NCBI GenBank assembly: GCA_036495685.1
Contig: DASXMJ010000056.1
Span: 1-44,802 of the forward strand
Length of the DNA: 44,802 bases
Direction: 5' to 3'
Origin: Candidatus Binataceae bacterium
GTDB taxonomy: Bacteria; Desulfobacterota; Binatia; Binatales; Binataceae
Below are positions 1,536 to 30,900 of the stretch, in pieces. Position 1 is the stretch's first letter; each line of letters begins with the position of its first letter. A program made the translations under genes and the position numbers. The notes under the pieces were generated by a model that was not told where the DNA came from, did no database searches, and saw only the letters and a program-made list of their open reading frames with translations.

Positions 1536-2495
1536 ATGAGCGAAGCGTTGCCACTGGCAAAGCGAATCAGATTTGGGGTGATGGCAGCTGCGCCGGATCG
1601 CGAGCACGCCAAAAGTGCGGTGGATGCGATCGCTGCATGGGGCTACGAAGTAATCTGGACGGGAGACCACGTCGCGTTTACCGGGCCCATAAGCGATCCG
1701 CTGCTGCAACTCACCTACATGGCTGCCCTCCGACCCGAACTTACCTACGGAACCAGCATCTACCTGCTGCCGCTACGTCATCCGACCCCGGTCGCCAAGA
1801 TGGTAGCAACGCTGGATCGCCTGATGGGCGCGGGGCAGTTTATTTTTGGAATCGGCGTGGGCGGGGAATTTCCACCCGAGTTCGAAGCCTGCGGAGTGCC
1901 CGTGAAACAGCGCGGCGGGCGGGCGACCGAGGCGATCCAGGTCATCAGGCGACTGTGGTCCGAGCCCACGGTGGAGCATCACGGGCGTTACTTCAGTTTC
2001 GGCCCAATAAAAATGGAACCCAAGCCGGCGACTCCCGGCGGACCGCCGATCTGGATCGGGGGGCGTGCGGAGGCGGCGCTCAAGCGCGCGGCTCATCACG
2101 GCGACGGATGGATGCCGTACGTGCTGACGCCCAAGCGAATCGCAGATGGGCTCGAGTTCATCGCGCGCGAGGCCACCAAGGCGGGGCGCAAAATCGAGAG
2201 CTTTGGAACCTCGTTCCACGCGTTCGTCACGCTCGGCAAATCCTACGAGACGGCCCTCGAGGTTGCCGGGGAACAGTTAAGCAAACGCTACGCGATGGAT
2301 TTTCGCGAACCCGCCAGACGGTACAGCGTGCTCGGTACTCCGGCGGACGCGGCCGAAAAGATCGCAGAATTGATCGGGGCGGGCGTCCGTGACATCGGCG
2401 TTGATGCGATCTGTCATCCGCGCGATCGGGACGCGCAGCTCGAGCAATTCGCCAAGGAAGTGATCCCGCTGGTGCGGACGCAGGGGAGCTTCTAG
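1536..2495 (+). CDS. LLM class flavin/F420-dependent oxidoreductase
   Basis: A 319-residue protein of the luciferase-like monooxygenase superfamily, a TIM-barrel fold that uses FMN or coenzyme F420. Family features are the early strand IRFGVM, the segment WTGDHV (around residues 41-46), the GIGVGGEFPPEFEACG segment (about 106-121) that marks the F420-type branch, and the substrate-side motif PPIWIGGRAEAALKRAA (around 169-185). Length matches the family. The substrate cannot be told from sequence; relatives include alkane/alkanesulfonate-type monooxygenases and F420-dependent dehydrogenases. It is a single gene with its own promoter, and its neighbour on the other strand starts a convergent operon end. 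Cytoplasmic; no signal peptide. Confidence 0.85.
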   Translation: MSEALPLAKRIRFGVMAAAPDREHAKSAVDAIAAWGYEVIWTGDHVAFTGPISDPLLQLTYMAALRPELTYGTSIYLLPLRHPTPVAKMVATLDRLMGAGQFIFGIGVGGEFPPEFEACGVPVKQRGGRATEAIQVIRRLWSEPTVEHHGRYFSFGPIKMEPKPATPGGPPIWIGGRAEAALKRAAHHGDGWMPYVLTPKRIADGLEFIAREATKAGRKIESFGTSFHAFVTLGKSYETALEVAGEQLSKRYAMDFREPARRYSVLGTPADAAEKIAELIGAGVRDIGVDAICHPRDRDAQLEQFAKEVIPLVRTQGSF

Positions 2496-2530
2496 GCTGT
2501 CCTTCCTCCCGACCGGAAGGCGCGTTCTGT

Positions 2531-4468
2531 TCAACCGCGTTGTTCGGTCCGACCCAACAAAGCTGCGATGGCGGTGGTCAACTCGCTCGCATCGATCGGC
2601 TTCGCCATATGCATCTGGTACCCCGCCAGTAGCGCGCGGCGGCGATCTTCGGGACGGGCCAGAGCAGTTAGTGCGATCGCGGGCAACGCTTGGTAGCTGT
2701 AGCCGCGCGCGCGCACTTCACGAATCAACGCGTAGCCGTCCAGCTCTGGCATTCCGATATCACTGACCAGCACCTGCGGGGTACTCCGTTCGAACTGCGC
2801 CAGCGCCGATTTGACATTGAAGGCGGTCTTCACTATCGCACCGGTTTCCTCCAGGATGCGCGACAGCACAGCGCAAGTGTCAGTGTCATCGTCAACGACC
2901 AGGACGCGAACCCCTTCCAGACGTGCAAACTCGGGCGCCCTTGGCGACTCCGCGTTGAGAGGATCGCGAAAGGTTGCGGCTACCGGTAGTGTCACAGTGA
3001 ATTTCGCGCCCTGCCCTATGCCCGCGCTCGACGCACTCACGGTTCCGCCGTGCATCTCCACCAGGTGTTTGACGATGGCAAGTCCGAGTCCCAGCCCGCC
3101 GTGACCGTGGTTGCTCTTGGTGTCACCTTGACGGAAGCGATCGAACAGGTATGGGAGCAACTCGGGCCTGATTCCCTGACCATTGTCGGCGACGTTGATC
3201 TCGACGTGAGATTCCACGCGTTCGAGTCTGAGGTCGATATTTCCCCCGCTAGGCGTGAACTTGATCGCGTTGTTCACCAGGTTCCAGACCACTTGCTGGA
3301 GCCGTCCCGCATCGCCGGAGATCAGGCCGGCATTGACGTCGAACCAGCTCTGCAGCTTGAGTTGTTTCGCATCGATGGCGGGTGACAGTCCCTCCAGGGC
3401 GCCCTTCATCATGGCGGCTAGGTCGACCGGTCTGATCTCGAGCCGCAGTTTACCGGAGACGATGGCAGATACATCGAGCAAATCCGAAATTAGCTGCGCC
3501 TGGACTTTGGTATTGCGTTCGATTGCGGACAAGCCGCGCTCGATCTGCACCCGGTCATCAGTGTCGTGCTGCAGCCGTTGGGTCCAAAGCAGGATCGAGT
3601 TCAGCGGGGTGCGCAATTCGTGGGACAGGGTGCTCAGGAATTCATCCTTGAGGTAGTTGGCGCGCTCGGCTTCGGCGCGGGCGCTGCGCTCGCTGGCAAG
3701 CAGGTCATTGCGTTCGCTTTCAAACCGCATGCGGTCGGAGATGTCGGTAATGACGGCCAGCCTGACCCCGCGCAACGAATGCGCCGAAATGTGCCATTCC
3801 AGATGGATCAGCTGGCCGTCGGGCCCTGCCATCGCAAAGGTTCCGCGCCAGGTTCCGGTCTCTTCCAGCGAGCGTTGGATTTCGTGCGAATCGGAGGGCC
3901 CTCCCGGCGGAATGAACGAGAGCAAGGGAAAGCCGATGATCTCCTCGCGCTTACGGCCTAACACCCCGCACATTGCAGGGTTCACCTCCAGGTAGTTCAG
4001 GCGCTCATCGAGCAACACGATCCCGATGAAGGCATTCTCGAAAACGGTCCTGAATTTCGCTTCGCTCTTGTGCATCTCCTCCTCCGCGCGACGCGCGCGG
4101 AGAAATGCCTTGATCGTCGCGATCAACACCGAGGGCTCGATTGGATGCGTGAGGTAACCATCAGCGCCGGAGTCCAGTCCGTGCGCTTTGTCCAAATCGG
4201 TTACGAAGGTGGCCGAGACGTGGATGATCGGTATTCGCGCCGACCGCGGATCCTGCCGCAGGCGGCGGCAGACTTCAAACCCATGGAGGTCGGGCAGGTT
4301 CACATCGAGCAGCATTAAGTCGATATCTTCAAGCGCCAGGTCGAACGCTTCCTCGCCGCTGGTTCCTTCAGCGACGTCAAACCCCGCCGCACGCAGCACC
4401 CGCGAAGTCGAATAAAGGGTGGCGTGGTTGTCGTCCACCACCGCCACGCGTGGGGTTGGATCAGACAT
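2531..4468 (-). CDS. Hybrid histidine kinase, REC-PAS-HisKA-HATPase-REC
   Basis: A 645-residue soluble hybrid kinase, the last gene of the stressosome operon. Order of domains: receiver 1 (residues 7-125, acidic pair Asp12/13, phospho-acceptor Asp55), PAS (about 133-245), dimerisation/phospho-acceptor domain with His283 in SHELRTP, ATPase with N-box Asn400 and the DNGQGI and GLGLGL boxes (428-463), and receiver 2 (519-640, Asp570, Lys623). There are no membrane segments, so the signal must come from a partner or the cytoplasm. Receiver 1 has THP where most receivers have a KP with the conserved lysine (here His108), a variant that may slow or change switching. It overlaps the preceding kinase gene by 8 bases, implying coupled translation. 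No separate output regulator is in the window. Confidence 0.92.
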   Translation of the reverse strand: MSDPTPRVAVVDDNHATLYSTSRVLRAAGFDVAEGTSGEEAFDLALEDIDLMLLDVNLPDLHGFEVCRRLRQDPRSARIPIIHVSATFVTDLDKAHGLDSGADGYLTHPIEPSVLIATIKAFLRARRAEEEMHKSEAKFRTVFENAFIGIVLLDERLNYLEVNPAMCGVLGRKREEIIGFPLLSFIPPGGPSDSHEIQRSLEETGTWRGTFAMAGPDGQLIHLEWHISAHSLRGVRLAVITDISDRMRFESERNDLLASERSARAEAERANYLKDEFLSTLSHELRTPLNSILLWTQRLQHDTDDRVQIERGLSAIERNTKVQAQLISDLLDVSAIVSGKLRLEIRPVDLAAMMKGALEGLSPAIDAKQLKLQSWFDVNAGLISGDAGRLQQVVWNLVNNAIKFTPSGGNIDLRLERVESHVEINVADNGQGIRPELLPYLFDRFRQGDTKSNHGHGGLGLGLAIVKHLVEMHGGTVSASSAGIGQGAKFTVTLPVAATFRDPLNAESPRAPEFARLEGVRVLVVDDDTDTCAVLSRILEETGAIVKTAFNVKSALAQFERSTPQVLVSDIGMPELDGYALIREVRARGYSYQALPAIALTALARPEDRRRALLAGYQMHMAKPIDASELTTAIAALLGRTEQRG

Positions 4469-5408
4469 CTTTGACCCTCGCCCCCCTCGCAGTTTCGCTT
4501 ACCGTTTGCGAAGAATCGCCTGAAGTAAATTGAATCGGAAGGGTGACGTAAAAAATCGACCCCTGGCCGAGTTCGCTTTCGACCCCTACACTCCCACCGA
4601 GGAGTTCCGCCAGCCGTTTGCTGAGCGCCAAACCGAGGCCTACGCCCTGCACGCGACGCTGGATTCGGGAATCGACCTGTACGAAATCGCGAAACAATGC
4701 GCCCAGATGCTCTCGCGCAATGCCGATGCCGGTATCCGCGACCGCGAATTTCACCCAGCCTGGAGCGTGGCTCTCCGCTGATACTCGCACCTCACCCCGG
4801 CGGGTGAACTTAAGCGCGTTGGAAATGAAGTTGCGCAGAATTTGCCCGATTTTTTTGTCATCCGAGAAGGCTCGCGGGAGACCAACCGGCTCCTCGAACA
4901 CCAGCCCGACCTGAGGATTGTTGAGCATCGGCTTGAACATTCCGCGAAGCGCGGCGAACAGGTCGACCAGCTCAAACCATGCCGGCGAAATCGAAATCCG
5001 CCCTGCCTCGATCTTGGCTAGGTCGAGCAAATCGTTCACCATCTCGCTCAGTTCCTGGGCGGAACTTTGGATGAAACCGATCTGTTTCTCCTGCTCGGGG
5101 GTCAGCGGTCCATCGAGCCGATCGAGGAGGATTCGGGTCAAGCTGCGGATCGAGCCAAGCGGAGTACGAAACTCGTGGCTCATATACGATAGGAAGCGGC
5201 TTTTTAAATCCGAGGCTTCCCGCAACTGCTGCGCCTTATCGTCTAGTTCCGCATAGAGCGCGACGACCCCGCTGTTGGTCTCCGCGAGTTCGCGGCTCAG
5301 GGACTCGACTTGCTCAACTCGCTGGGCCAACTCGGCTTTCAACGCATCATGCTCGGCGCGCATGGGCTCGCTCTCTTTTACGCTCAGTTCGTCGTCACAC
5401 ATGTGCAT
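4461..5408 (-). CDS. Soluble sensor histidine kinase with coiled-coil N-terminus
   Basis: About 315 residues, no membrane segment. An N-terminal coiled coil (about residues 15-70) leads straight into the phospho-acceptor domain (SHEFRTP, histidine near residue 78) and an ATPase domain with N-box Asn near 197, DTGIG near 225 and GVGLGL near 255. It lacks any receiver or PAS domain, so its input probably comes through the coiled coil from another protein of the stressosome operon. The frame opens with TTG at 5411, directly before ATG at 5408, with another ATG at 5402; I take 5408. The start overlaps the stop of the upstream phosphatase gene, and its own end overlaps the hybrid kinase. It may pass phosphate to a receiver of the hybrid kinase. 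Confidence 0.9.
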   Translation of the reverse strand: MHMCDDELSVKESEPMRAEHDALKAELAQRVEQVESLSRELAETNSGVVALYAELDDKAQQLREASDLKSRFLSYMSHEFRTPLGSIRSLTRILLDRLDGPLTPEQEKQIGFIQSSAQELSEMVNDLLDLAKIEAGRISISPAWFELVDLFAALRGMFKPMLNNPQVGLVFEEPVGLPRAFSDDKKIGQILRNFISNALKFTRRGEVRVSAESHAPGWVKFAVADTGIGIAREHLGALFRDFVQVDSRIQRRVQGVGLGLALSKRLAELLGGSVGVESELGQGSIFYVTLPIQFTSGDSSQTVSETARGARVKDV

Positions 5409-6423
5409 CAAACAGGCTCGCGGTCAGGCGTCCCGCCAGGACGGTTGCATCGTCACGGGTGCGCTTCGCGTCGCGGTACACTATGCCGGCGATGACCGCG
5501 ACATCGGTCCGCGCCAGTCCCGGATAGTTCCCAAGGTTCCAACGTTCGTTCAAGCCGTCCGAATGCATCACCAGGAGATCACCCTCCTGCCATCGGTAGT
5601 CAAATTGTTGCACCTTGCGCAGACCCGCGCCCACAATTCCGCCATGTGAAACCAGCGACTGCTGCCGGTTCGCGGCGAGATTTACGATCCGCGCCGCAAT
5701 GTTGCCCACTCCTGCGTAATGAAGCTCTCGCGCGCCAAGATCAATCTCCGCAATCGCCAGCGCCGCGCCCCGCGTCGAGCGCATTGCCGCATCTGCCGCC
5801 GCTAGATAGTCGGCAGGGGTCGGAAACCAGTGTTCGCTGAAAACCTCTAAAGCTTGCCCGGCGGCAGCCGCCGCGAGCGGACCGTGCCCCAGTCCATCGA
5901 CGACAATTGCGGCGAGTTTGTTGCCCACCTGGCGCAAGCTCCACGCATCTCCGCACTCGGTCTCGCCCGGTGCCGGAACGCTGATCGCAGAAAATTCACA
6001 GGGACCCGGGTGAGGTCCGCCGCCCCGAACGCGCGACATTACCACGCTTCCCGCGGGCTGCCTTGAGTTGATATCGAAGTCGGTGGACAGACGGCGTACT
6101 GCGCCCAGTCCACATCCCCGCGTCCCGCCCCGCGAGTAGCCGTCCGCAAGGCAGACGCTCACATCGTCGATTCCCGGGCCTCGATCGAGAGCGATTATCT
6201 CAAGACCCGGTGCGGTTTCGTCCGGAAGCAAGCGCAACACAATTTCGCCACCCTGGGCATGCGCGAGCAGATTGGTCGCAAGTTCGGTGACGATCAGCGG
6301 GACCTTGCCCAATTCGGCTGGCGGGAGCTTTGCGCGCTCGGCCATTTGCGTGGAAATGCGCCGCGCTTCACCGACCGAGCTACGGTCATGAATCTCGATA
6401 GATCGATGCTGATGAACCGCCAT
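5395..6423 (-). CDS. RsbT-like ATPase fused to SpoIIE/RsbX-type phosphatase
   Basis: About 342 residues in two domains. The N-terminal part (10-133) is a GHKL anti-sigma-type serine kinase domain with N-box (ELATN, Asn near 51), DRGPGI near 80 and GCGLGA near 104. The C-terminal part (about 145-340) is a PP2C-type phosphatase of the SpoIIE/RsbX group with metal-site aspartates in CGDAW, VVDGLGHG, HSDGLNE and RDDATV. In known stressosomes RsbX removes phosphate from RsbR and RsbS to reset the complex; that is the likely role here. The extra RsbT-like domain makes the protein a possible kinase/phosphatase for the same serine or threonine sites. The start is ATG 6423 just after a TTG, 7 bases from the end of rsbT. 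Confidence 0.88.
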   Translation of the reverse strand: MAVHQHRSIEIHDRSSVGEARRISTQMAERAKLPPAELGKVPLIVTELATNLLAHAQGGEIVLRLLPDETAPGLEIIALDRGPGIDDVSVCLADGYSRGGTRGCGLGAVRRLSTDFDINSRQPAGSVVMSRVRGGGPHPGPCEFSAISVPAPGETECGDAWSLRQVGNKLAAIVVDGLGHGPLAAAAAGQALEVFSEHWFPTPADYLAAADAAMRSTRGAALAIAEIDLGARELHYAGVGNIAARIVNLAANRQQSLVSHGGIVGAGLRKVQQFDYRWQEGDLLVMHSDGLNERWNLGNYPGLARTDVAVIAGIVYRDAKRTRDDATVLAGRLTASLFDAHV

Positions 6424-6430
6424 CAATGGA

Positions 6431-6835
6431 TCATTTCCATCGGGTTATAATCACTGTAGTCCCAACCCCCGGTTTGGAGACCAGTTCGAATTCATTGACC
6501 AGTCGTTTCGCGCCCGGCAAGCCCAAACCCAGTCCGCTGCCGGTCGTCCAACCATCCTTCATGGCGAGCTTGGTATCTTCGATTCCGGGACCGCTGTCGT
6601 TAAAGGTGAGCCGCAAGCCCTGACGTCCGTTTTCGGCCACCGTTTCCCACACCATGGTTCCTCCGCCGCCATGGACGAGAGCATTGCGGGCCAACTCGCT
6701 CGCCGCCGTCACCAGCTTGGTCTGATCGACGATGGTGAAGCCTAGTCCGCGAGCGGCGGAGCGGATCGCCTGCCGCGCGAGGACGACATCTTGCTCACGG
6801 ACCAGCGGCAATGCTTCACTTTTTGACGGGACCAT
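6431..6835 (-). CDS. rsbT: RsbT, stressosome serine/threonine kinase
   Basis: A 134-residue GHKL-type ATPase of the anti-sigma serine kinase family. N-box is SELARNALVHGGG (Asn51), ATP-lid motifs are DSGPGI (80-85) and GSGLGLGL (99-106). In the known pathway RsbT is held by the RsbR-RsbS complex, phosphorylates both on stress, and is then released to switch on a partner. In Bacillus the partner is RsbU; no RsbU is present here, so the released kinase must act on something else, perhaps the histidine kinases encoded downstream. The ATG lies inside the end of rsbS (20-base overlap), a sign of tight coupling. Confidence 0.92.
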   Translation of the reverse strand: MVPSKSEALPLVREQDVVLARQAIRSAARGLGFTIVDQTKLVTAASELARNALVHGGGGTMVWETVAENGRQGLRLTFNDSGPGIEDTKLAMKDGWTTGSGLGLGLPGAKRLVNEFELVSKPGVGTTVIITRWK

Positions 6836-7196
6836 TTCTGGAATCCTGTGACGCGTTTAGCATCGCCATTCCGCGCTCCACGTCGAGCGCGGTCATCACA
6901 CCCTGGAGCGTGAGTCCCAGCTCGACCAGAGTTATCGCGACCGCGGGTTGCATTCCGACCACCACGGTACCGGCGTCGAGAATCCGTGACATTGCGGAGA
7001 TATTGCTGATCGTCCTGCCTATGAAAGAGTCCACGATCTCGAGCGCTGATATATCGATCAGCACACCGTGCGCGTGGGTTTTCTCGATCATCCCGGTCAG
7101 GTCTTCCTGAAGCTGAATCGCGACTCGATCGTCCATCTCCACCTGAATGGTAACCAGCAGAAACGGACCCATACGAATAATTGGAATTCTTTCCAT
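6816..7196 (-). CDS. rsbS: RsbS, stressosome scaffold STAS protein
   Basis: A 126-residue single STAS domain. The segment IDISALEIVDSFIGRTI holds Ser57, which fits the serine of Bacillus RsbS phosphorylated by RsbT. The rest (TVVVGMQPAVAITLVELGL) is typical of the RsbS/RsbR STAS core. RsbS forms the pseudo-icosahedral stressosome with RsbR and traps RsbT. The gene starts 9 bases after rsbR and overlaps rsbT by 20 bases. The C-terminal tail (residues 113-126) is short and polar. Confident identification from motif, length and order of neighbours. Confidence 0.93.
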   Translation of the reverse strand: MERIPIIRMGPFLLVTIQVEMDDRVAIQLQEDLTGMIEKTHAHGVLIDISALEIVDSFIGRTISNISAMSRILDAGTVVVGMQPAVAITLVELGLTLQGVMTALDVERGMAMLNASQDSRNGPVKK

Positions 7197-7205
7197 GCTT
7201 GGCCA

Positions 7206-8060
7206 TCAATGCTGGGTGTTAACGATCGACAGTCCGGATAGTTTGAGGGCGAGCCCGAGCGCATCTGCCAGCGTCGCCTTGGTAGTCACTCCCTGCAGGT
7301 CGATGCCTAGATGAACGATGGTCTGCGCAATTTGCGGTCGAATTCCGCTGATGATGCAATCCGCACCCATCATCCGAATGGCGGTTACGGTCTTGAGCAG
7401 ATGTTGGGCAGTCTGGGTATCTACCGTGGGCACTCCGGTGATGTCGATGATCGCGGTGCCCGAACCGGTCTCGACGATTCGCTGGAGCAGCGTTTCCATG
7501 ACTACCTGCGTGCGCGCGCTGTCCAGCGTGCCGATGATGGGGAGCGCGAGAATTCCTTCCCACAACTTGACCACCGGCGTCGACAGTTCAAGCATTTCCT
7601 GCTGTTGGCGCCCAATAACCTCTTCGCGCGCTTTCTGGAAGGTCTTGACCGTGTGCATTCCGAGCTTGTCGATCAGCTCGGTCGTGCTCCACACTTCGTC
7701 GGCCAGCAGCTGCGCGTCTTTGCCGAGTTCTTTGCGCAGGCGCTCGAAGAGTGGTTTCTTTAAAGAAAAGATAAAGGTGGCCGTCTGGTCCGACGTAAAT
7801 CCCTGCATTGCTCGCGAGCGAGAGACATCCTTCAAAAATTCCAGGATTGGCACCCAAGCCTTGCTTTCAATGCTCTCAATGCCGTCGGCCGAAGCCGCCT
7901 GCAGGAGGCCAAGAAACTCACGCGTCTGGGTTGACAACTCCGACTCGCTGATTCGGAGGTCGCCGTTGAGCCTCTTTGTCAAATCCTTCATCCACTCAGC
8001 CTGAAGGTCTACGGTGTATTTCTTGATAATTGCCGGCGCTTTAGATTTTGCGATTGCCAT
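7206..8060 (-). CDS. rsbR: RsbR-type stressosome sensor, N-terminal RsbRD-like domain plus STAS
   Basis: A 284-residue cytoplasmic protein and first gene of the operon. The N-terminal half (about 10-155) is all-helical and resembles the RsbRD-type sensory domain, not the haem-free globin of classical RsbRA. A linker (155-165) leads to a STAS domain (165-278) that includes IIDITGVPTVDTQTAQHLL. Thr215 in VDT lines up with the RsbT target threonine (T205 in Bacillus RsbR), and the Thr178 region with the second site. An excellent ribosome binding site (GGAGGAGG, 8 bases before the ATG) supports the start. Only one RsbR paralogue is present in the window; many genomes hold several with other sensors. 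Confidence 0.9.
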   Translation of the reverse strand: MAIAKSKAPAIIKKYTVDLQAEWMKDLTKRLNGDLRISESELSTQTREFLGLLQAASADGIESIESKAWVPILEFLKDVSRSRAMQGFTSDQTATFIFSLKKPLFERLRKELGKDAQLLADEVWSTTELIDKLGMHTVKTFQKAREEVIGRQQQEMLELSTPVVKLWEGILALPIIGTLDSARTQVVMETLLQRIVETGSGTAIIDITGVPTVDTQTAQHLLKTVTAIRMMGADCIISGIRPQIAQTIVHLGIDLQGVTTKATLADALGLALKLSGLSIVNTQH

Positions 8061-8500
8061 GATGACTCCTCCTCCGGGTTAGCACCGGCGACCAGGAACA
8101 AACTCAAACGCTGGTTAATTGCGGAAACTCAAGGCCGGGCCGCGGCCTAGCAGCTAGTTGGCACTAACCCGAAGACCACGGGCATGCAGCGGAGCAAGAG
8201 GTCGTCGCGCAGCCACTTGTTTTATTTTGCTGTGCCATCCCTCTCAGCCAGTTCGCCATTTACCAAGCGTGCTCCTCTTCGTTTTCTCCTTATCTCCGCT
8301 CGACGAGAAACCGCGTCCTCAGATCCGCACGACTGCTTGGGTGCAAACGCATCGTAACCCGGTTAGGCAGAGTTTTTCCATTAAAACTTACCGTCTGACG
8401 GGTACGGTGAAGTGCGGCGGCGGTCGTGCTAGGTTCTTGGGCCGTGGCAGTCGACCGGCGATGACGGGGGCGCCCGGTCCGATTCCCAGTAGCGGCGAAA
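8061..8500. other. Divergent intergenic region between stressosome operon and pcnB-like gene
   Basis: This 440-base gap should hold promoters for both directions. I see the strong rsbR ribosome binding site at its left end. An imperfect inverted repeat (ACTTACCGT at 8386-8394 against ACGGTGAAGT at 8404-8413) lies near the right end and could be an operator or a leader hairpin. No protein with family-like features is encoded; the frames across it look random. No convincing -35/-10 pair was found by eye. Confidence 0.45.
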
Positions 8501-9814
8501 TTGGAACCACGCATAATCGAACGCGCTGACCATCCGATCTCGCGCCGCGACATCGATCCCAACGTACTGAGTGTCCTTTATCGCCTGATCAACGCGGGAC
8601 ACCTCGCTTACCTCGTGGGCGGCGGGGTACGCGACCTGATGCTGGGGCGCCGGCCCAAAGATTTCGATGTCGGTACCTCGGCCCATCCTCAGCAGGTTCG
8701 CGATCTCTTCCGCAACTCGCGCCTTATCGGCCGGCGGTTTCGCTTGGTCCACGTATTCTTTGGTCCCCACAATGTCGAGGTCGCGACCTTTCGCCGCCGC
8801 AGCGAAGATCTCGGCGGCCCCGACGATCCTTTGATTCGGGTCGACAACACTTTTGGCACACCGCAAGAGGACGCGTTCCGCCGCGACTTTACGGTCAACG
8901 CGCTGTTTTACGACCCTGCGACTTTCCACGTGATCGATTACCCGGGGGGCGTCGACGATCTTGGCGCCAGGTTGATCCGCACGATCGGAGATCCGGAAAC
9001 CCGCATGCGCGAGGACCCGGTCCGCATGCTGCGCGCGGTGAGATTTGCGGCGAAGCTGGAGTTTGCGATAGAACCCGCCACCCGCGCGGCGATTGAACGG
9101 CACCGCCACGACCTGCTGAAAGCGGCGATGCCACGCCTGGTCGAAGAGACCTATCGCACGCTGGGACAGGCCGCGGCGGGGCGCGCGGCCTGTCTGATGG
9201 AAGAGCTGGGACTGCTTGAGCCGCTGCTGCCGTTTCTCTCGCAGCATCTGAAAGCCTCATCCGGCAGCGGCGCGCAACCATTGATGATTTCTCACATGAT
9301 CGCGCTCGGACATCTCATCGATGAGGGATTTGCGGCCGATCATGCCTTCGTGCTGGGAGCCATGTTCTTCGATTTTATGCGCGCGCGTCGATCACGCGCC
9401 GAGAGCAACGAATTCGACCTGCTCACCGAATTGCGCCTGCGCGGGTTTGCCCGGGGCGATACCGAGCGGATGCGGCTGGTCACAGATGCGTTCGAGCATC
9501 TCGCCGCACCCTCGCGACGGGCCCGACGGCTGATGCACCGACCTTACTTTGCTCACGCGCGACTATTCTTCGAAATGGTGGCCCCCAGCTATGGAATCGA
9601 CATCGGGCCGCTGCAGCGATTTCTCAATGACCCCGGGACGTTCTTCGCCGGGAAGCCCAGCGGCGACGACCGCGCCACCTCAGGACATCGGCGGCGCCGA
9701 CGCCGACGGCGTCACCGCCGATCGCGGCACCCGCAGGGCGGGCTCAGCGCTGCGGCTGGCTCCCCAAGCAAGCAGGCTCCGATATCGACTCCAGACGCGC
9801 CTCGCCGCCAGTGA
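8501..9814 (+). CDS. pcnB: Poly(A) polymerase / tRNA nucleotidyltransferase family (PcnB-like)
   Basis: A 437-residue class II nucleotidyltransferase. It opens with PRII-RADHPISRRDI, typical of PcnB. The active-site helix-strand is LVGGGVRDLMLGRRPKDFDV with metal-binding Asp54 and Asp56. RRDFTVNALFYD (about 126-137) and the RNA-binding arm DPVRMLRAVRFAAKLEF (about 168-184) follow. The C-terminal 50 residues are an arginine/histidine-rich basic tail, common in bacterial poly(A) polymerases and likely to bind RNA. PcnB adds 3' poly(A) tails that promote RNA decay; some relatives repair the CCA end of tRNA, and the two cannot be fully separated by eye. The only start that fits the family is TTG at 8501; the frame is closed by a stop at 8462. 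Confidence 0.87.
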   Translation: MEPRIIERADHPISRRDIDPNVLSVLYRLINAGHLAYLVGGGVRDLMLGRRPKDFDVGTSAHPQQVRDLFRNSRLIGRRFRLVHVFFGPHNVEVATFRRRSEDLGGPDDPLIRVDNTFGTPQEDAFRRDFTVNALFYDPATFHVIDYPGGVDDLGARLIRTIGDPETRMREDPVRMLRAVRFAAKLEFAIEPATRAAIERHRHDLLKAAMPRLVEETYRTLGQAAAGRAACLMEELGLLEPLLPFLSQHLKASSGSGAQPLMISHMIALGHLIDEGFAADHAFVLGAMFFDFMRARRSRAESNEFDLLTELRLRGFARGDTERMRLVTDAFEHLAAPSRRARRLMHRPYFAHARLFFEMVAPSYGIDIGPLQRFLNDPGTFFAGKPSGDDRATSGHRRRRRRRRHRRSRHPQGGLSAAAGSPSKQAPISTPDAPRRQ

Positions 9815-12414: not shown

Positions 12415-13293
12415 TCAGCGGGGCATATCGCCTTTCAAATACATAGTCCCGGTCGGCTTTTCCGTGCCGTTGGCGGGCTCAAGCGTAACCGCGGATGCGA
12501 CGATTTCCTCCCCTTTAGGCGGCATGATCAGAGCGACCCTGGCGACGCCCTCGGCCGGTGCCTCGAACAGCCCTGCACGGATCGGTCCGGCCTCGCGACC
12601 AATCCACCACGCTTCGTAAATTTTGTCGGTCGGGGCGGGTGGGAGGCCGGATACCTGCATAAACGCCGTGTGACTGCTCGGACTAAATGCCACCGTCCCA
12701 CTAGCCTTAGGCGCGGCAGCCAATCCCGCCAGATGGACCACGCGTGCATCGGGCGAAAACGCTGCCAGGGTCAGGTTCGAGGTGAGAGACAGTTGCGTCT
12801 TCAGGTCTGCTATCCGGGCGGACGCGATTTCCAGGCCCCGCTGAAGCTCATCTATCCGTGCCCGCAAGGCAGCTACTTCAAAGCTAGCAGTACCACGCGC
12901 CGACTGAAGTCCGCGGTACAGGCTCAGAACGTTGAAGCCGAGCGCGATCAAAGCGAGCGCCGCAATCGCAATCGCCGCGAACGAGACCATGTGGATTCGG
13001 TCCCGCGGACGCATCGCGCGATCCCGGTCCCGCATACCCGCGCGGCTTCCCGGGGACAAGGTCTGGTCTGCGTCGAGCCTGGCTTCGACCAGCTGCCATA
13101 TACGCTCGTTGCTTGCGCCCTCCCGGTCCGCGGTCAGCGCGAGCGCTCCCAAAGCCTCACGAAACGATGCGAGTTCGCGCTCGCATTCAGGGCAGCCCCC
13201 GGCCAGATGCGTCGTTACGGCACGGTCCTCGTCGGACTCGAGCCGGTCGAGCGCCCTCAGCGGCAGCAGGTCTTTGACCTCTTCGTGATTCAT
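12415..13293 (-). CDS. RskA-like membrane anti-sigma factor
   Basis: A 292-residue single-pass membrane protein. The N-terminal cytoplasmic anti-sigma domain has a zinc-binding HxxxxCxxC variant (His29, Cys34, Cys37). One membrane segment lies at about 103-125, then a short coiled coil (about 135-165), and an outside RskA domain at about 185-290 with FMQVSGLPPAPTDKIYEAWWI and LEPANGTEKPTG. Such proteins hold an ECF sigma factor inactive and release it after cleavage or redox change. It starts 5 bases after its cognate sigma gene, so the pair is one operon. The coiled-coil region between membrane and RskA domain could be a dimer or sensor element. Confidence 0.88.
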   Translation of the reverse strand: MNHEEVKDLLPLRALDRLESDEDRAVTTHLAGGCPECERELASFREALGALALTADREGASNERIWQLVEARLDADQTLSPGSRAGMRDRDRAMRPRDRIHMVSFAAIAIAALALIALGFNVLSLYRGLQSARGTASFEVAALRARIDELQRGLEIASARIADLKTQLSLTSNLTLAAFSPDARVVHLAGLAAAPKASGTVAFSPSSHTAFMQVSGLPPAPTDKIYEAWWIGREAGPIRAGLFEAPAEGVARVALIMPPKGEEIVASAVTLEPANGTEKPTGTMYLKGDMPR

Positions 13294-13298
13294 CTTGG

Positions 13299-13859
13299 CT
13301 AGTCGACTCTACCAGCCAGGTTGTCGCGGAGTTTGATCAACGCCGTGCGCATGCGGGTCTTAACCGTCCCGAGCGGTAGCCCGGTCCGTTCCGCAATTTC
13401 TGCTTGCGACAGATCGGAAAAGTATGCGAGTTCGAGCACCTCACGCTCCCCGTCCTTGAGTTCCGCCAATATCCTGGATACCTGCTGCTTTCGTTCCGCG
13501 CTAAAAATCGCCTGCGACGGATCGTCCTCGTGGCCAATCAGGCCGGGGTCCTCGGCAGACCGCTCCCGCGACTTGCGGGAACGCAGGCGATCGATTGCGC
13601 GACTACGCGCCAGCATCATCAGCCACGCTCCCACCGAGCCGCGACTGCGATCGAATCGCGACGCATCCCGCCAGGCCTGCCACAAGACATCTGCGGCGAC
13701 TTCTTCGGCATCGGCTCGGCTGGCCAGGATTCGTTCTGCGACGACCGCGATCGCATTGCCATAGCGCTGGTTGAAGGCGCGCAGAGCTTCCTGCCTACCG
13801 GAAGCCATCGCAGCCACCAACTCCAGGTCGGTCATGCGACTTGCAGTGCCCTCGACCAC
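13299..13859 (-). CDS. ECF RNA polymerase sigma factor (SigK-like group)
   Basis: About 186 residues, with only the two domains of ECF sigma factors. Region 2 covers about residues 28-95 (NAIAVVAERILASRADAEEVAADVLWQAW and WLMMLARSRAIDRLRSRK). Region 4 covers about 128-180 (LAELKDGEREVLELAYFSDLSQAEIAERTGLPLGTVKTRM). The partner RskA-like anti-sigma factor follows after 5 bases. The frame opens at GTG 13859 with a G-rich stretch just upstream; an inner ATG at 13835 is the other possible start. I found no convincing autoregulatory promoter by eye. The target regulon is unknown; the nearby exported peroxiredoxin might be a member, but this is speculation. Confidence 0.88.
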   Translation of the reverse strand: MVEGTASRMTDLELVAAMASGRQEALRAFNQRYGNAIAVVAERILASRADAEEVAADVLWQAWRDASRFDRSRGSVGAWLMMLARSRAIDRLRSRKSRERSAEDPGLIGHEDDPSQAIFSAERKQQVSRILAELKDGEREVLELAYFSDLSQAEIAERTGLPLGTVKTRMRTALIKLRDNLAGRVD

Positions 13860-29434: not shown

Positions 29435-30193
29435 CTAGCTTCTCAGAAGAGCGGCTAATCTTTCCATCTCGTCCACGCCCATGTCCGACACGATCCAATA
29501 ATTCATCCCGGCGTGACTAAAATGGTCGAGGTTATAACCGCTACGGGTGAGCAGCGATGGGGCGCGCTCGGAACCATCCGATGGCCAGATGAAAACGTTG
29601 ATGAGGTGTGGTCCATGCTGGTACACGAGCGCCGCCACCGGACGGTCATCCAGGTAGTCGACCCGCCCGCCGACCAGCTTGAAGGTCTTGGCCTGAAAGT
29701 CCGCGACCGGCGGAGAGAAATCGATCTTGCCCTCGAACCATGGCTTCACGGTGTGGCGATCGCTCGATGGGACGTCGGTGAGATGATCGACCTGGGTCGA
29801 GCGCACGTGTGCGGCCACCACCTCTCGTACCAGAAAGTCGCTCTGGTCCACTCGGAACATTCGCGGCATGAGCAGGAGCGCAAGCACCGCCGCGATCGCA
29901 GCGGGAATTGCAATTGCGCTGGAGCGTGGCAACCACCGCCCGGTGCGAGTGACCCGGGCCGCGTCTGCCACGGGCGAACTCCCCAGCGCATTTACAATCC
30001 GGCGCCGCAGTACCTCCGGCGCACGAGCTCGCTCGCTCTCGCCCAGCGCTTTTTTGAGCGCGCGAATCGACTCCACCTCGCTTGTGCAGCGTTCGCATTC
30101 GCTTAAATGCCGGGTGACCTCGCGATCGGTGGCGACGTCGAGCTCGCGATCCACGTGCGCATCGAGCAAGGGGCGTGCCTCTTCGCAAGTCAT
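29435..30193 (-). CDS. Zinc-finger membrane anti-sigma factor
   Basis: A 252-residue protein. The N-terminal anti-sigma domain has EEARPLLDAHVDREL and the zinc motif HLSECERC (His29, Cys33, Cys36). One membrane segment lies at about 91-109, followed by an outside domain (about 115-252). That domain reads FKLVGGRVDYLDDRPVAALVYQ and LDHFSHAGMNYWIVSDMG, seen in a common group of ZAS anti-sigma factors. It binds and silences the ECF sigma factor encoded just upstream, with which it overlaps by 4 bases (ATGA). The outside domain may sense an envelope signal. It is unlike the RskA-type protein at 12415-13293, so the two systems are not duplicates. Confidence 0.87.
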   Translation of the reverse strand: MTCEEARPLLDAHVDRELDVATDREVTRHLSECERCTSEVESIRALKKALGESERARAPEVLRRRIVNALGSSPVADAARVTRTGRWLPRSSAIAIPAAIAAVLALLLMPRMFRVDQSDFLVREVVAAHVRSTQVDHLTDVPSSDRHTVKPWFEGKIDFSPPVADFQAKTFKLVGGRVDYLDDRPVAALVYQHGPHLINVFIWPSDGSERAPSLLTRSGYNLDHFSHAGMNYWIVSDMGVDEMERLAALLRS

Positions 30194-30801
30194 GGCTGCC
30201 CTCCGCCGTAAGACAGCTTGTGCAGCGCCTGTTTGAGGCGACTGCGCGCGCGCGCCAGCCGGGACATGACGGTGCCGATGGGAAGGTCTGCGACTTCGGC
30301 GATTTCCTTGTAGGAGAGCCCTTCCAGATCGCGCAGCACCACGATCTCGCGAAACTCCGTGGGCAACTCTTCCATCGCCGTGCGCAGCGCTCGCGAATCC
30401 GCCCTGCGAATCAGCTCGACATCTACCGGCACCGCCTCATCCGGATGTTGTTCTTCGTCGAAGGGCATTGGCGGATCGGCGCTCCGGTTGCGGCTAAGCC
30501 AGGTGTATGCGGTATTTCGCACGATGGTGAGGAGCCAGGCGCGCGGGTCGCCGCCGCGAAACGTCCCGCAGAAACGCAGCGCGCGCAGATACGCCTCCTG
30601 GACGACGTCCTGAGCGTCGGCTTCGTTTTTCAGCACCCATCGCGCCAGGTTGTACGCAGCATCCAGGTGCGGCAGAAATGTGCGCTGAAAATCGTCGCGA
30701 TTTTCTGGTCCGGTCAAGTGCTTCCCGCGCGCGCCGGCCGTTGCCGTCGAGCCGTTGCCTGCGGGCACCAGCCGCAAGCCTGGCTTGACCATGGTCCTCA
30801 T
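30190..30801 (-). CDS. ECF RNA polymerase sigma factor
   Basis: About 203 residues. Region 2 is FLPHLDAAYNLARWVLKNEADAQDVVQEAYLRALRFCGTF and WLLTIVRNTAYTWLSRNR (about 42-106). Region 4 is MEELPTEFREIVVLRDLEGLSYKEIAEVADLPIGTVMSRLARARSRL (about 142-188). The group resembles ECF15-like or RpoE-like factors paired with ZAS anti-sigma factors. The start is uncertain: the frame opens at TTG 30849, with ATGs at 30801 and 30792; none has a good ribosome binding site. A GGAAT/GTC promoter upstream suggests autoregulation. The anti-sigma gene follows with a 4-base overlap. Confidence 0.87.
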   Translation of the reverse strand: MRTMVKPGLRLVPAGNGSTATAGARGKHLTGPENRDDFQRTFLPHLDAAYNLARWVLKNEADAQDVVQEAYLRALRFCGTFRGGDPRAWLLTIVRNTAYTWLSRNRSADPPMPFDEEQHPDEAVPVDVELIRRADSRALRTAMEELPTEFREIVVLRDLEGLSYKEIAEVADLPIGTVMSRLARARSRLKQALHKLSYGGGQP

Positions 30802-30900
30802 CCGGGAGAGGACTGCCGGCGGCGCGATTTTATTCCCCGCGAGCTGCAAGACTCAATTGCAATAGTCGGTCACTGAACTACGGTCAGCGTACACATAGAT

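Follow-up and report, generated by a model that had tools for sequence, protein, structure and literature searches.

A stressosome operon of Candidatus Binataceae in which RsbT may act on histidine kinases through a conserved helix

The stretch of DNA considered here, called the window throughout, is positions 1 to 44,802 of contig DASXMJ010000056.1 of a Candidatus Binataceae bacterium (assembly GCA_036495685.1). Between positions 2,531 and 8,060 it carries a stressosome operon in which rsbR, rsbS, rsbT and a phosphatase gene in the role of rsbX are followed by genes for two histidine kinases. Judged by its proteins and their relatives, this stressosome most likely feeds a His-Asp phosphorelay and not a sigma-B switch. 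A specific coupling is proposed at a probability of roughly 0.57: free RsbT would dock in trans on a helix of the first kinase, and the signal would be relayed through the second, hybrid kinase. An earlier reading of the sequence alone had suggested that RsbT release, or the stressosome itself, feeds such a relay; it is supported in part, by a helix that is found only with rsbRST and by relatives that fuse an RsbT-like domain to that helix. Loci are labelled L, genomes G and contigs C.

The operon and its relatives

The six open reading frames (ORFs) and the features inside them that matter below are the following, with the basis of each assignment in brackets.

7206..8060, minus strand: rsbR, an RsbRD_N sensor domain and a STAS domain, with phosphorylatable Thr178 and Thr215 (ORF, Pfam, alignment)
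6816..7196, minus strand: rsbS, one STAS domain, with phosphorylatable Ser57 (VDSF) (ORF, Pfam, alignment)
6431..6835, minus strand: rsbT, a switch Ser/Thr kinase with HATPase_c, D94 and the clade-specific Trp63 and Trp96 (Pfam, alignment)
5395..6426, minus strand: fusion of an RsbT-like ATPase domain (HATPase_c_2) to a SpoIIE/PP2C phosphatase, in the RsbX role (Pfam, RsbT profile)
4461..5411, minus strand: soluble histidine kinase with helix, HisKA and HATPase_c, no sensor and no receiver; His79, counted from the mechanical start at 5411 (Pfam, AlphaFold)
5202..5303, minus strand: signalling helix of this kinase, SLSRELAETNSGVVALYAELDDKAQQLREASDLK, a stressosome-linked linker (profile, alignment)
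2531..4468, minus strand: hybrid kinase, REC1-PAS-HisKA-HATPase_c-REC2, REC being a receiver domain (ORF, Pfam)
4079..4441 (approximate limits), minus strand: REC1 of the hybrid, with the Asp pair, Asp55 and Ser85 present and His108 for the conserved Lys (alignment)
2567..2905, minus strand: REC2 of the hybrid, with canonical Asp570, Thr601 and Lys623 (Pfam, alignment)

Measured from the mechanical starts, the joints are +9 (rsbR-rsbS), -20 (rsbS-rsbT), +4 (rsbT-fusion), -17 (fusion-kinase) and -8 nucleotides (nt) (kinase-hybrid), that is, overlaps at three of the five and gaps below 10 nt at the other two. The mechanical starts of the fusion and the first kinase are TTG codons; because an ATG comes right after each, the ATG is the likelier start (6423 and 5408, respectively). 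RsbR, RsbS and RsbT are adjacent, in order and carry the phosphorylatable Thr and Ser residues of an RsbRST core, and the PP2C gene directly after rsbT (SpoIIE domain, E 2.9e-15) completes an rsbRSTX module. Window RsbT retains its catalytic boxes; both histidine kinases have an intact HisKA His and intact N, G1 and G2 boxes of the HATPase domain (Pfam, alignment), and in the first kinase the His and the ATPase boxes are invariant across its alignment. The gene order and the overlaps at most joints described by the sequence-only reading are thus borne out. Its phosphatase fusion is indeed a PP2C fusion, with the correction that the N-terminal half is itself RsbT-like: its score on a profile of RsbT is 83.6 bits, that of Listeria RsbW 2.5. 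This ATPase half keeps D92 (RsbT numbering) in 87 of 93 rows, three of which (L050, L147, L067) are mis-sorted kinase N-termini.

The same reading remarked that the Bacillus output RsbU-RsbV-RsbW-sigma-B is missing from the operon, and this holds: no rsbU, rsbV, rsbW or sigB gene lies beside it, and RsbU_N is absent from all six operon proteins (Pfam, E ≤ 0.01). A consensus scan of positions 2300-8600 gave no sigma-70 promoter before rsbR, with 1.5 matches expected by chance. Two genes for ECF-type sigma factors lie elsewhere in the window, neither adjacent to the operon: one at 13299-13859 on the minus strand, followed by an RskA_C anti-sigma-domain protein (12415-13293, minus strand), and one with Sigma70_r2 and r4 domains at 30190-30849 (minus strand).

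Relatives were gathered by an RsbS scan of a collection of 84,980 genomes, one per species, which yielded 501 relatives; the best 80 were fetched as loci. This best-80 set is rich in cyanobacteria, and near-identical rows were retained in the counts given for the phosphorylation sites, the helix, D92, the fused domain, REC1 and the tryptophans. Downstream genes were labelled as kinase or hybrid by their best BLAST match to the window genes. Downstream sequence of 5.5 kb or more is available for 60 of the loci; 57 of these have the order R-S-T-fusion and 50 the full order R-S-T-fusion-kinase-hybrid. The exceptions to the latter are loci that start at rsbS (L038, L083), have a split kinase frame (L054, L075), have one hybrid-labelled kinase (L050, L067) or no hybrid (L069, L084), have a second kinase that matches the first best (L011), or are rearranged (L080). 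The hosts include Cyanobacteria, alpha-, beta- and gammaproteobacteria, Gemmatimonadota, Acidobacteriota, Planctomycetota, Nitrospirota, Binatota and Rokubacteria. Within the window's own phylum the distribution is patchy, the fusion (E ≤ 1e-30) being found in 6/198 genomes and RsbT (E ≤ 1e-15) in 24/395.

The phosphorylation sites are kept in nearly every aligned row (RsbS S57 in 100/103; RsbR T178 in 95/100 and T215 in 98/100). In alignment with the Listeria proteins they fall where the B. subtilis sites fall, and we take them to be the counterparts of the known B. subtilis phosphorylation sites. The notion that the chain itself is unusual does not survive the genome search for the six-gene order: 50 of 60 loci share it, across phyla, which rules out rarity. 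That the module type is not new, as the sequence-only reading allowed, is confirmed in print, the available part of PMC9237108 describing rsbRSTX modules followed by two-component (kinase/receiver phosphorelay) proteins. The operon belongs to a known and widespread kind.

A helix and an RsbT-like domain ahead of the kinase

The segment right before HisKA is common to the kinases of these relatives and has the consensus xLNxELEDTNRGVVALYAELDEKAxxLRRAxELK. It is a helix of 34 residues and nearly invariant, although rows of the alignment (A1) were picked by pattern before aligning, so that the invariant columns are partly selected. The helix profile matches 77 frames in the fetched loci and the window (E<1e-4); an H-box stands behind the helix in 73 of these, and the distance from the Thr of TNxG to the His is 34 residues in 72 of the 73. 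In the AlphaFold model of the window kinase (mean pLDDT 83.1, pTM 0.67) residues 8-96 form a single unbroken helix, with pLDDT around 90 over residues 21-60; as modelled, this kinase is a signalling helix without a globular sensor domain. Models of single chains such as these do not extend to the arrangement of the dimer. In two actinobacterial loci the helix motif is doubled in tandem: Embleya L148 (8411-10654) shows two copies at an 18-residue step, and Nonomuraea L165 (6473-8146) gives one profile match that starts at 159 and another at 177. A literature search for the helix string found no paper.

One chance match apart, the helix is found only beside rsbRST across the 395 own-phylum genomes and 72,556 plasmid records searched. 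The window's own genome has a single match to set against 30 HisKA domains. Six of the 395 genomes of the phylum have the helix, five of them within rsbRSTX operons (the window, L151, L152, L154 and L155, the contig of the last ending before rsbR); the sixth match (G214), 15 residues in a 28-aa frame with no operon genes nearby, is a chance match. All five helix-operon genomes are among the 24 that bear RsbT at the threshold given above; elsewhere in the phylum RsbT is present and the helix is not (e.g., G330, G042, G078 and G182). A plasmid search with the L074 helix as the single query (tblastn, E ≤ 0.01), which overlooks divergent forms like the Streptomyces helices, matched 23 records, about 9 of them independent since 15 are D. 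radiodurans copies. All 23 also hold RsbS, which occurs in 98 plasmid records overall. By listed positions helix and RsbS are 1.5-2.2 kb apart in 22 of the 23; in a D. psychrotolerans plasmid the span crosses the record start, and for the 23rd plasmid (Nonomuraea) the operon was found on the fetched locus.

An RsbT-like domain (E<1e-4) precedes the helix in 65 of the 77 helix-bearing frames, and the 12 others are nine short kinases, the split kinase frame of L075 and two actinobacterial frames in which the domain matches weakly, L144 and L148. (L075 is counted here as showing no RsbT-like domain and is treated as long in the tree and the tryptophan counts.) On sequence grounds the fused domain is RsbT-like and not merely an ATPase, because its profile-profile match to RsbT has an E value of 7e-40 and because kinase N-termini score far above the controls on the RsbT profile: 115 (L052), 90 (L173), 83 (L147), 75 (L174), 70 (L145) and 46 bits (L160), against 2.5 for Listeria RsbW, 13.5 for a W-like protein of the own genome and 10-13 for the window's two kinases, scored by their catalytic ATPase domains. 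The boxes for ATP are kept (N-box Glu in 65/65 and Asn in 63/65, G1 Asp in 64/65). The model of the long relative L052 (mean pLDDT 84.4, pTM 0.50) has an RsbT-like fold at 1-129 and then a helix at 158-245; the placement of the one against the other is unsure. In a structure search with the model of the long kinase, the best 50 of 545 matches were histidine-kinase-type cores, a result that does not inform on the N-terminal domain. No description of an RsbT-like kinase domain was found in the literature searched, in part accessible only as excerpts, and subscription reviews may hold one.

The module seems to occur on another output as well. Three Streptomyces loci (L144, L170 and L172) have a weak RsbT-like domain (19-21 bits) and the helix before a SpoIIE-type phosphatase (called by Pfam in L144, where Pfam finds no RsbT-like domain, and by record annotation in L170 and L172); this appears, by sequence, to be the same input module differently connected. 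A gene annotated SigF lies near L170. Loci L165-L174 were picked by hand from plasmid match lists. Two Roseobacter plasmid rsbRSTX operons, L145 (Phaeobacter) and L174 (Salipiger), end in a protein with an RsbT-like domain (70 and 75 bits) and no helix motif, which by eye looks like another kinase type, HWE/HisKA_2-like.

The window kinase belongs to the short kind, about 300 aa without the RsbT-like domain. A tree of RsbR and RsbS (99 rows, quick search) groups all nine short-kinase operons in a single clade with an SH-aLRT of 97. Besides the window, this clade holds G018 from the same class, Hydrocarboniphaga, Lysobacter, Cupriavidus, Aquabacterium, Xenophilus, Variovorax and a Planctomycetaceae metagenome-assembled genome. 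Because the clade spans Pseudomonadota, Planctomycetota and the window's own phylum, transfer of the whole operon is suggested. Its members share two tryptophans of RsbT, Trp63 and Trp96 in the window, positions 61 and 94 in Listeria numbering. Both are present in 9/9 clade operons, against 0/69 (W61) and 2/69 (W94) of the long-kinase rows; among 101 RsbT rows from 97 loci, W61 is confined to the nine and W94 to the nine plus L144 and L148. Two later-fetched short-kinase operons (Xanthomonas, Variovorax) also carry both, which makes 11/11, and of eight other later-fetched loci none has W61 (one is gapped) and three have W94. Outside the clade, W94 occurs in L144, L148, L165 and L170 and not in L172, which makes four of the five actinobacterial operons in which the RsbT-like domain of the effector is degenerate or hardly detectable; it also occurs in L171, where no helix is seen. 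W94 stands two residues from D92, the known contact of RsbT with the RsbU linker. Since the short-kinase operons are one clade, the tryptophan pair is a signature and not proof of coevolution, and independent coevolution with loss of the fused domain is ruled out as a claim. No description of the short-kinase clade, or of a helix that marks effectors linked to stressosomes, was found in the searchable literature, some of it open only in part.

A proposed coupling of RsbT to a phosphorelay

The proposed sequence of events begins with what is established for the family: by analogy, RsbR and RsbS would form a sensing complex that holds RsbT, and upon stress RsbT would phosphorylate RsbR and RsbS, whose sites are present in the window, and leave. 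Free RsbT would then dock on the long helix before the His domain of the first kinase and order it, turning autophosphorylation on or off much as RsbT acts on the coiled-coil linker of RsbU. In most relatives the regulatory part appears to be built in, as the RsbT-like domain that precedes the helix; the window's clade has no such domain, and RsbT would act in trans. The phosphatase half of the fusion would reset RsbR and RsbS, its RsbT-like half probably bringing it to the complex. Phosphate of the kinase would pass to the N-terminal receiver of the hybrid, then to the hybrid's own kinase, its C-terminal receiver and an unlinked acceptor.

Docking in trans is proposed because this is the helix that carries a fused RsbT-like domain in relatives, a stronger argument than the likeness of the helix to RsbU. 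The latter starts from B. subtilis, where, according to PMC12143880, RsbT switches RsbU on by bringing order to its coiled-coil linker, linker residue R91 contacts RsbT D92, and changes at RsbU T89, G92 and Q94 suppress a binding defect. The RsbU change Q94L, which makes position 94 hydrophobic, bypasses the need for RsbT. The helix consensus T-N-R-G-V-V aligns over T89-L90-R91-G92-x-Q94 of RsbU, and window RsbT keeps the linker-contact Asp (D94, which is D92 in B. subtilis and Listeria numbering). An invariant Gly would fit a helix that is loose until bound. The likeness is partial, was noticed post hoc and is offered as a lead only. The available passages of PMC6848086, PMC2887360, PMC3999984 and PMC8363230 hold nothing that bears on the mechanism.

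Onward transfer turns on REC1. It has the acidic pair, the phospho-Asp and the Ser, and without the conserved Lys it falls short of a full receiver; REC2 is canonical. The substitution is general: in the 32 of 46 rows (window included) that show the phospho-Asp, the other 14 being gapped there, the Lys position holds Gln in 24, His in 7, Arg in 1 and Lys in none. The acceptor of the first kinase is probably REC1, to judge by domain order, because the first kinase has no receiver and a conserved, atypical one opens the next kinase. The genome's one HPt domain match lies elsewhere, in a 1078-aa frame that also carries HisKA. The sequence-only reading had noted that the chain has no separate response regulator; with a hybrid that starts with its own receiver domain this is less odd than it was made to seem.

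A number of observations weigh against docking of this kind. The fused domain lacks D92 (Gly in 58/65 rows), which RsbT itself keeps in 94/101, so by sequence it does not look like a simple copy of the RsbT contact, and its function may instead be to anchor kinases on the stressosome, something that the window kinase could not do. In operons L145, L147, L160, L173 and L174 the effector bears an RsbT-like domain but no helix. At the position of RsbU R91, Arg in 69 of the 77 helices, the window has Ser; of its short-kinase relatives, which share its RsbT tryptophans, the burkholderial L021, L054, L055 and L146 have Arg, and L017, L023, L068 and L154 have Leu, Asn, Asn and Ala, respectively. A salt bridge between RsbT D92 and a kinase Arg is thereby weakened as the whole mechanism. 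Listeria RsbU is without the Gly, and by analogy with Q94L the hydrophobic residue at the Q94 position might keep the helix ordered without RsbT. Absence of the fused domain is a single event on the tree, and the RsbT tryptophan changes may be mere shared ancestry. Finally, V. vulnificus RsbT showed no interaction with the two-component protein downstream of it (PMC9237108, as far as available), a protein not compared here for the helix.

The same paper finds RsbU_N missing from most downstream proteins and, to account for the failed test, proposes phosphorylation on Ser/Thr for stressosomes with an RsbU_N-less downstream kinase. RsbT, which in the window retains its catalytic boxes, or the fusion's ATPase could in this way modify the kinase or receiver instead of docking on a helix. 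This would leave unexplained the conserved helix, its fixed distance to the His and the fused RsbT-like domain, and one paper among the references of PMC4976288, to go by its title, denies that activation of the PP2C target needs RsbT kinase activity; we think it unlikely. Regulation might alternatively come from the RsbT-like half of the fusion, or the kinase might sit on the stressosome itself, with RsbT serving the RsbR/RsbS cycle only. The profile score of that half, its retention of D92 (mis-sorted rows noted above) and the overlap of the fusion and kinase genes speak for such a role, which is nevertheless rather improbable: the fusion occurs with long and short kinases alike and so does not look like a substitute for the built-in domain.

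The remaining explanations dispense with a direct signal from the stressosome to the kinases. They could be co-inherited and share a promoter only, sensing something else, and the hybrid does carry its own PAS domain; with no sensor domain in the first kinase and a helix found only with rsbRST, there is little to recommend this. RsbT might also act elsewhere. The genome assembly (245 contigs, 96% complete, so that absence is not proof) showed no cluster of the sigma-B type, but contig C214 (23.4-28.5 kb, L126) encodes a STAS protein, a metallo-beta-lactamase-fold hydrolase, a CHASE2-PP2C phosphatase and an RsbW-like ATPase, by its domains a second partner switch. The search beyond the operon for an rsbU/V/W/sigB cluster that takes the RsbT signal, proposed by the sequence-only reading, thus turned up a set of V, CHASE2-PP2C and W types. 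The phosphatase of this set carries a CHASE2 input and gave no match to RsbU_N (E ≤ 0.01) or to the helix, none of the genome's 22 Sigma70_r2 matches is on that contig, and the kinases travel with rsbRSTX across phyla; that RsbT acts on this switch, the kinases being mere neighbours, is very improbable indeed.

Known systems and significance

With the Bacillus and Listeria rsbRSTUVW-sigB-rsbX operons the window shares the R/S/T core, the phosphorylation sites and a feedback phosphatase; it differs in having histidine kinases in place of the RsbU_N-PP2C protein and sigma-B, and in a phosphatase that directly follows rsbT and is fused. Closer are the modules of Vibrio vulnificus and others in PMC9237108, where RsbR, RsbS, RsbT and a PP2C phosphatase are followed directly by signalling proteins, some of them HisKA/REC proteins, with no sigma-B cascade. 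Those of the Vibrio type have a globin RsbR and a single-domain RsbX, whereas the window has an RsbRD_N RsbR and the RsbT-like-PP2C fusion; for coupling, the paper puts forward RsbU_N or phosphorylation, and the RsbT-like domain and helix of the present study were not found in the portion of the paper available.

The operon DR_RS15570-15595 on the MP1 plasmid of D. radiodurans (L142) has the six-gene order and the helix, TNRGVVALYAEL, and its last gene starts with a receiver as the window hybrid does. Unlike the window kinase, its first kinase has a C-terminal REC besides the fused RsbT-like domain; unlike the window hybrid, its last kinase has no detected C-terminal REC. According to the available text of PMC6501615, DR_B0028 and DR_B0029 are histidine kinases thought to be co-regulated with an operon for antisigma-factor regulation, and DR_B0028 is more abundant after vacuum recovery; DR_B0029 is more abundant after space exposure (PMC7597052, likewise in part). 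These may be the kinases of the MP1 operon (DR_RS15590/15595).

A wider and more tentative reading, on which we would wager at somewhat short of even odds, is that RsbT is a detachable histidine-kinase subunit. A shared input module, RsbT-like domain plus fixed helix, would sit on histidine kinases in Gram-negatives and Deinococcus or on PP2C in Streptomyces; the window's clade would have lost, or never gained, the built-in copy, and a free RsbT with W61 and W94 would act in trans. The question addressed is where the signal goes in stressosomes that have no sigma-B. The helix names a likely point of contact, one that can be tested with small constructs. If docking on the helix holds, histidine kinases in many phyla would have a general input device in the stressosome.

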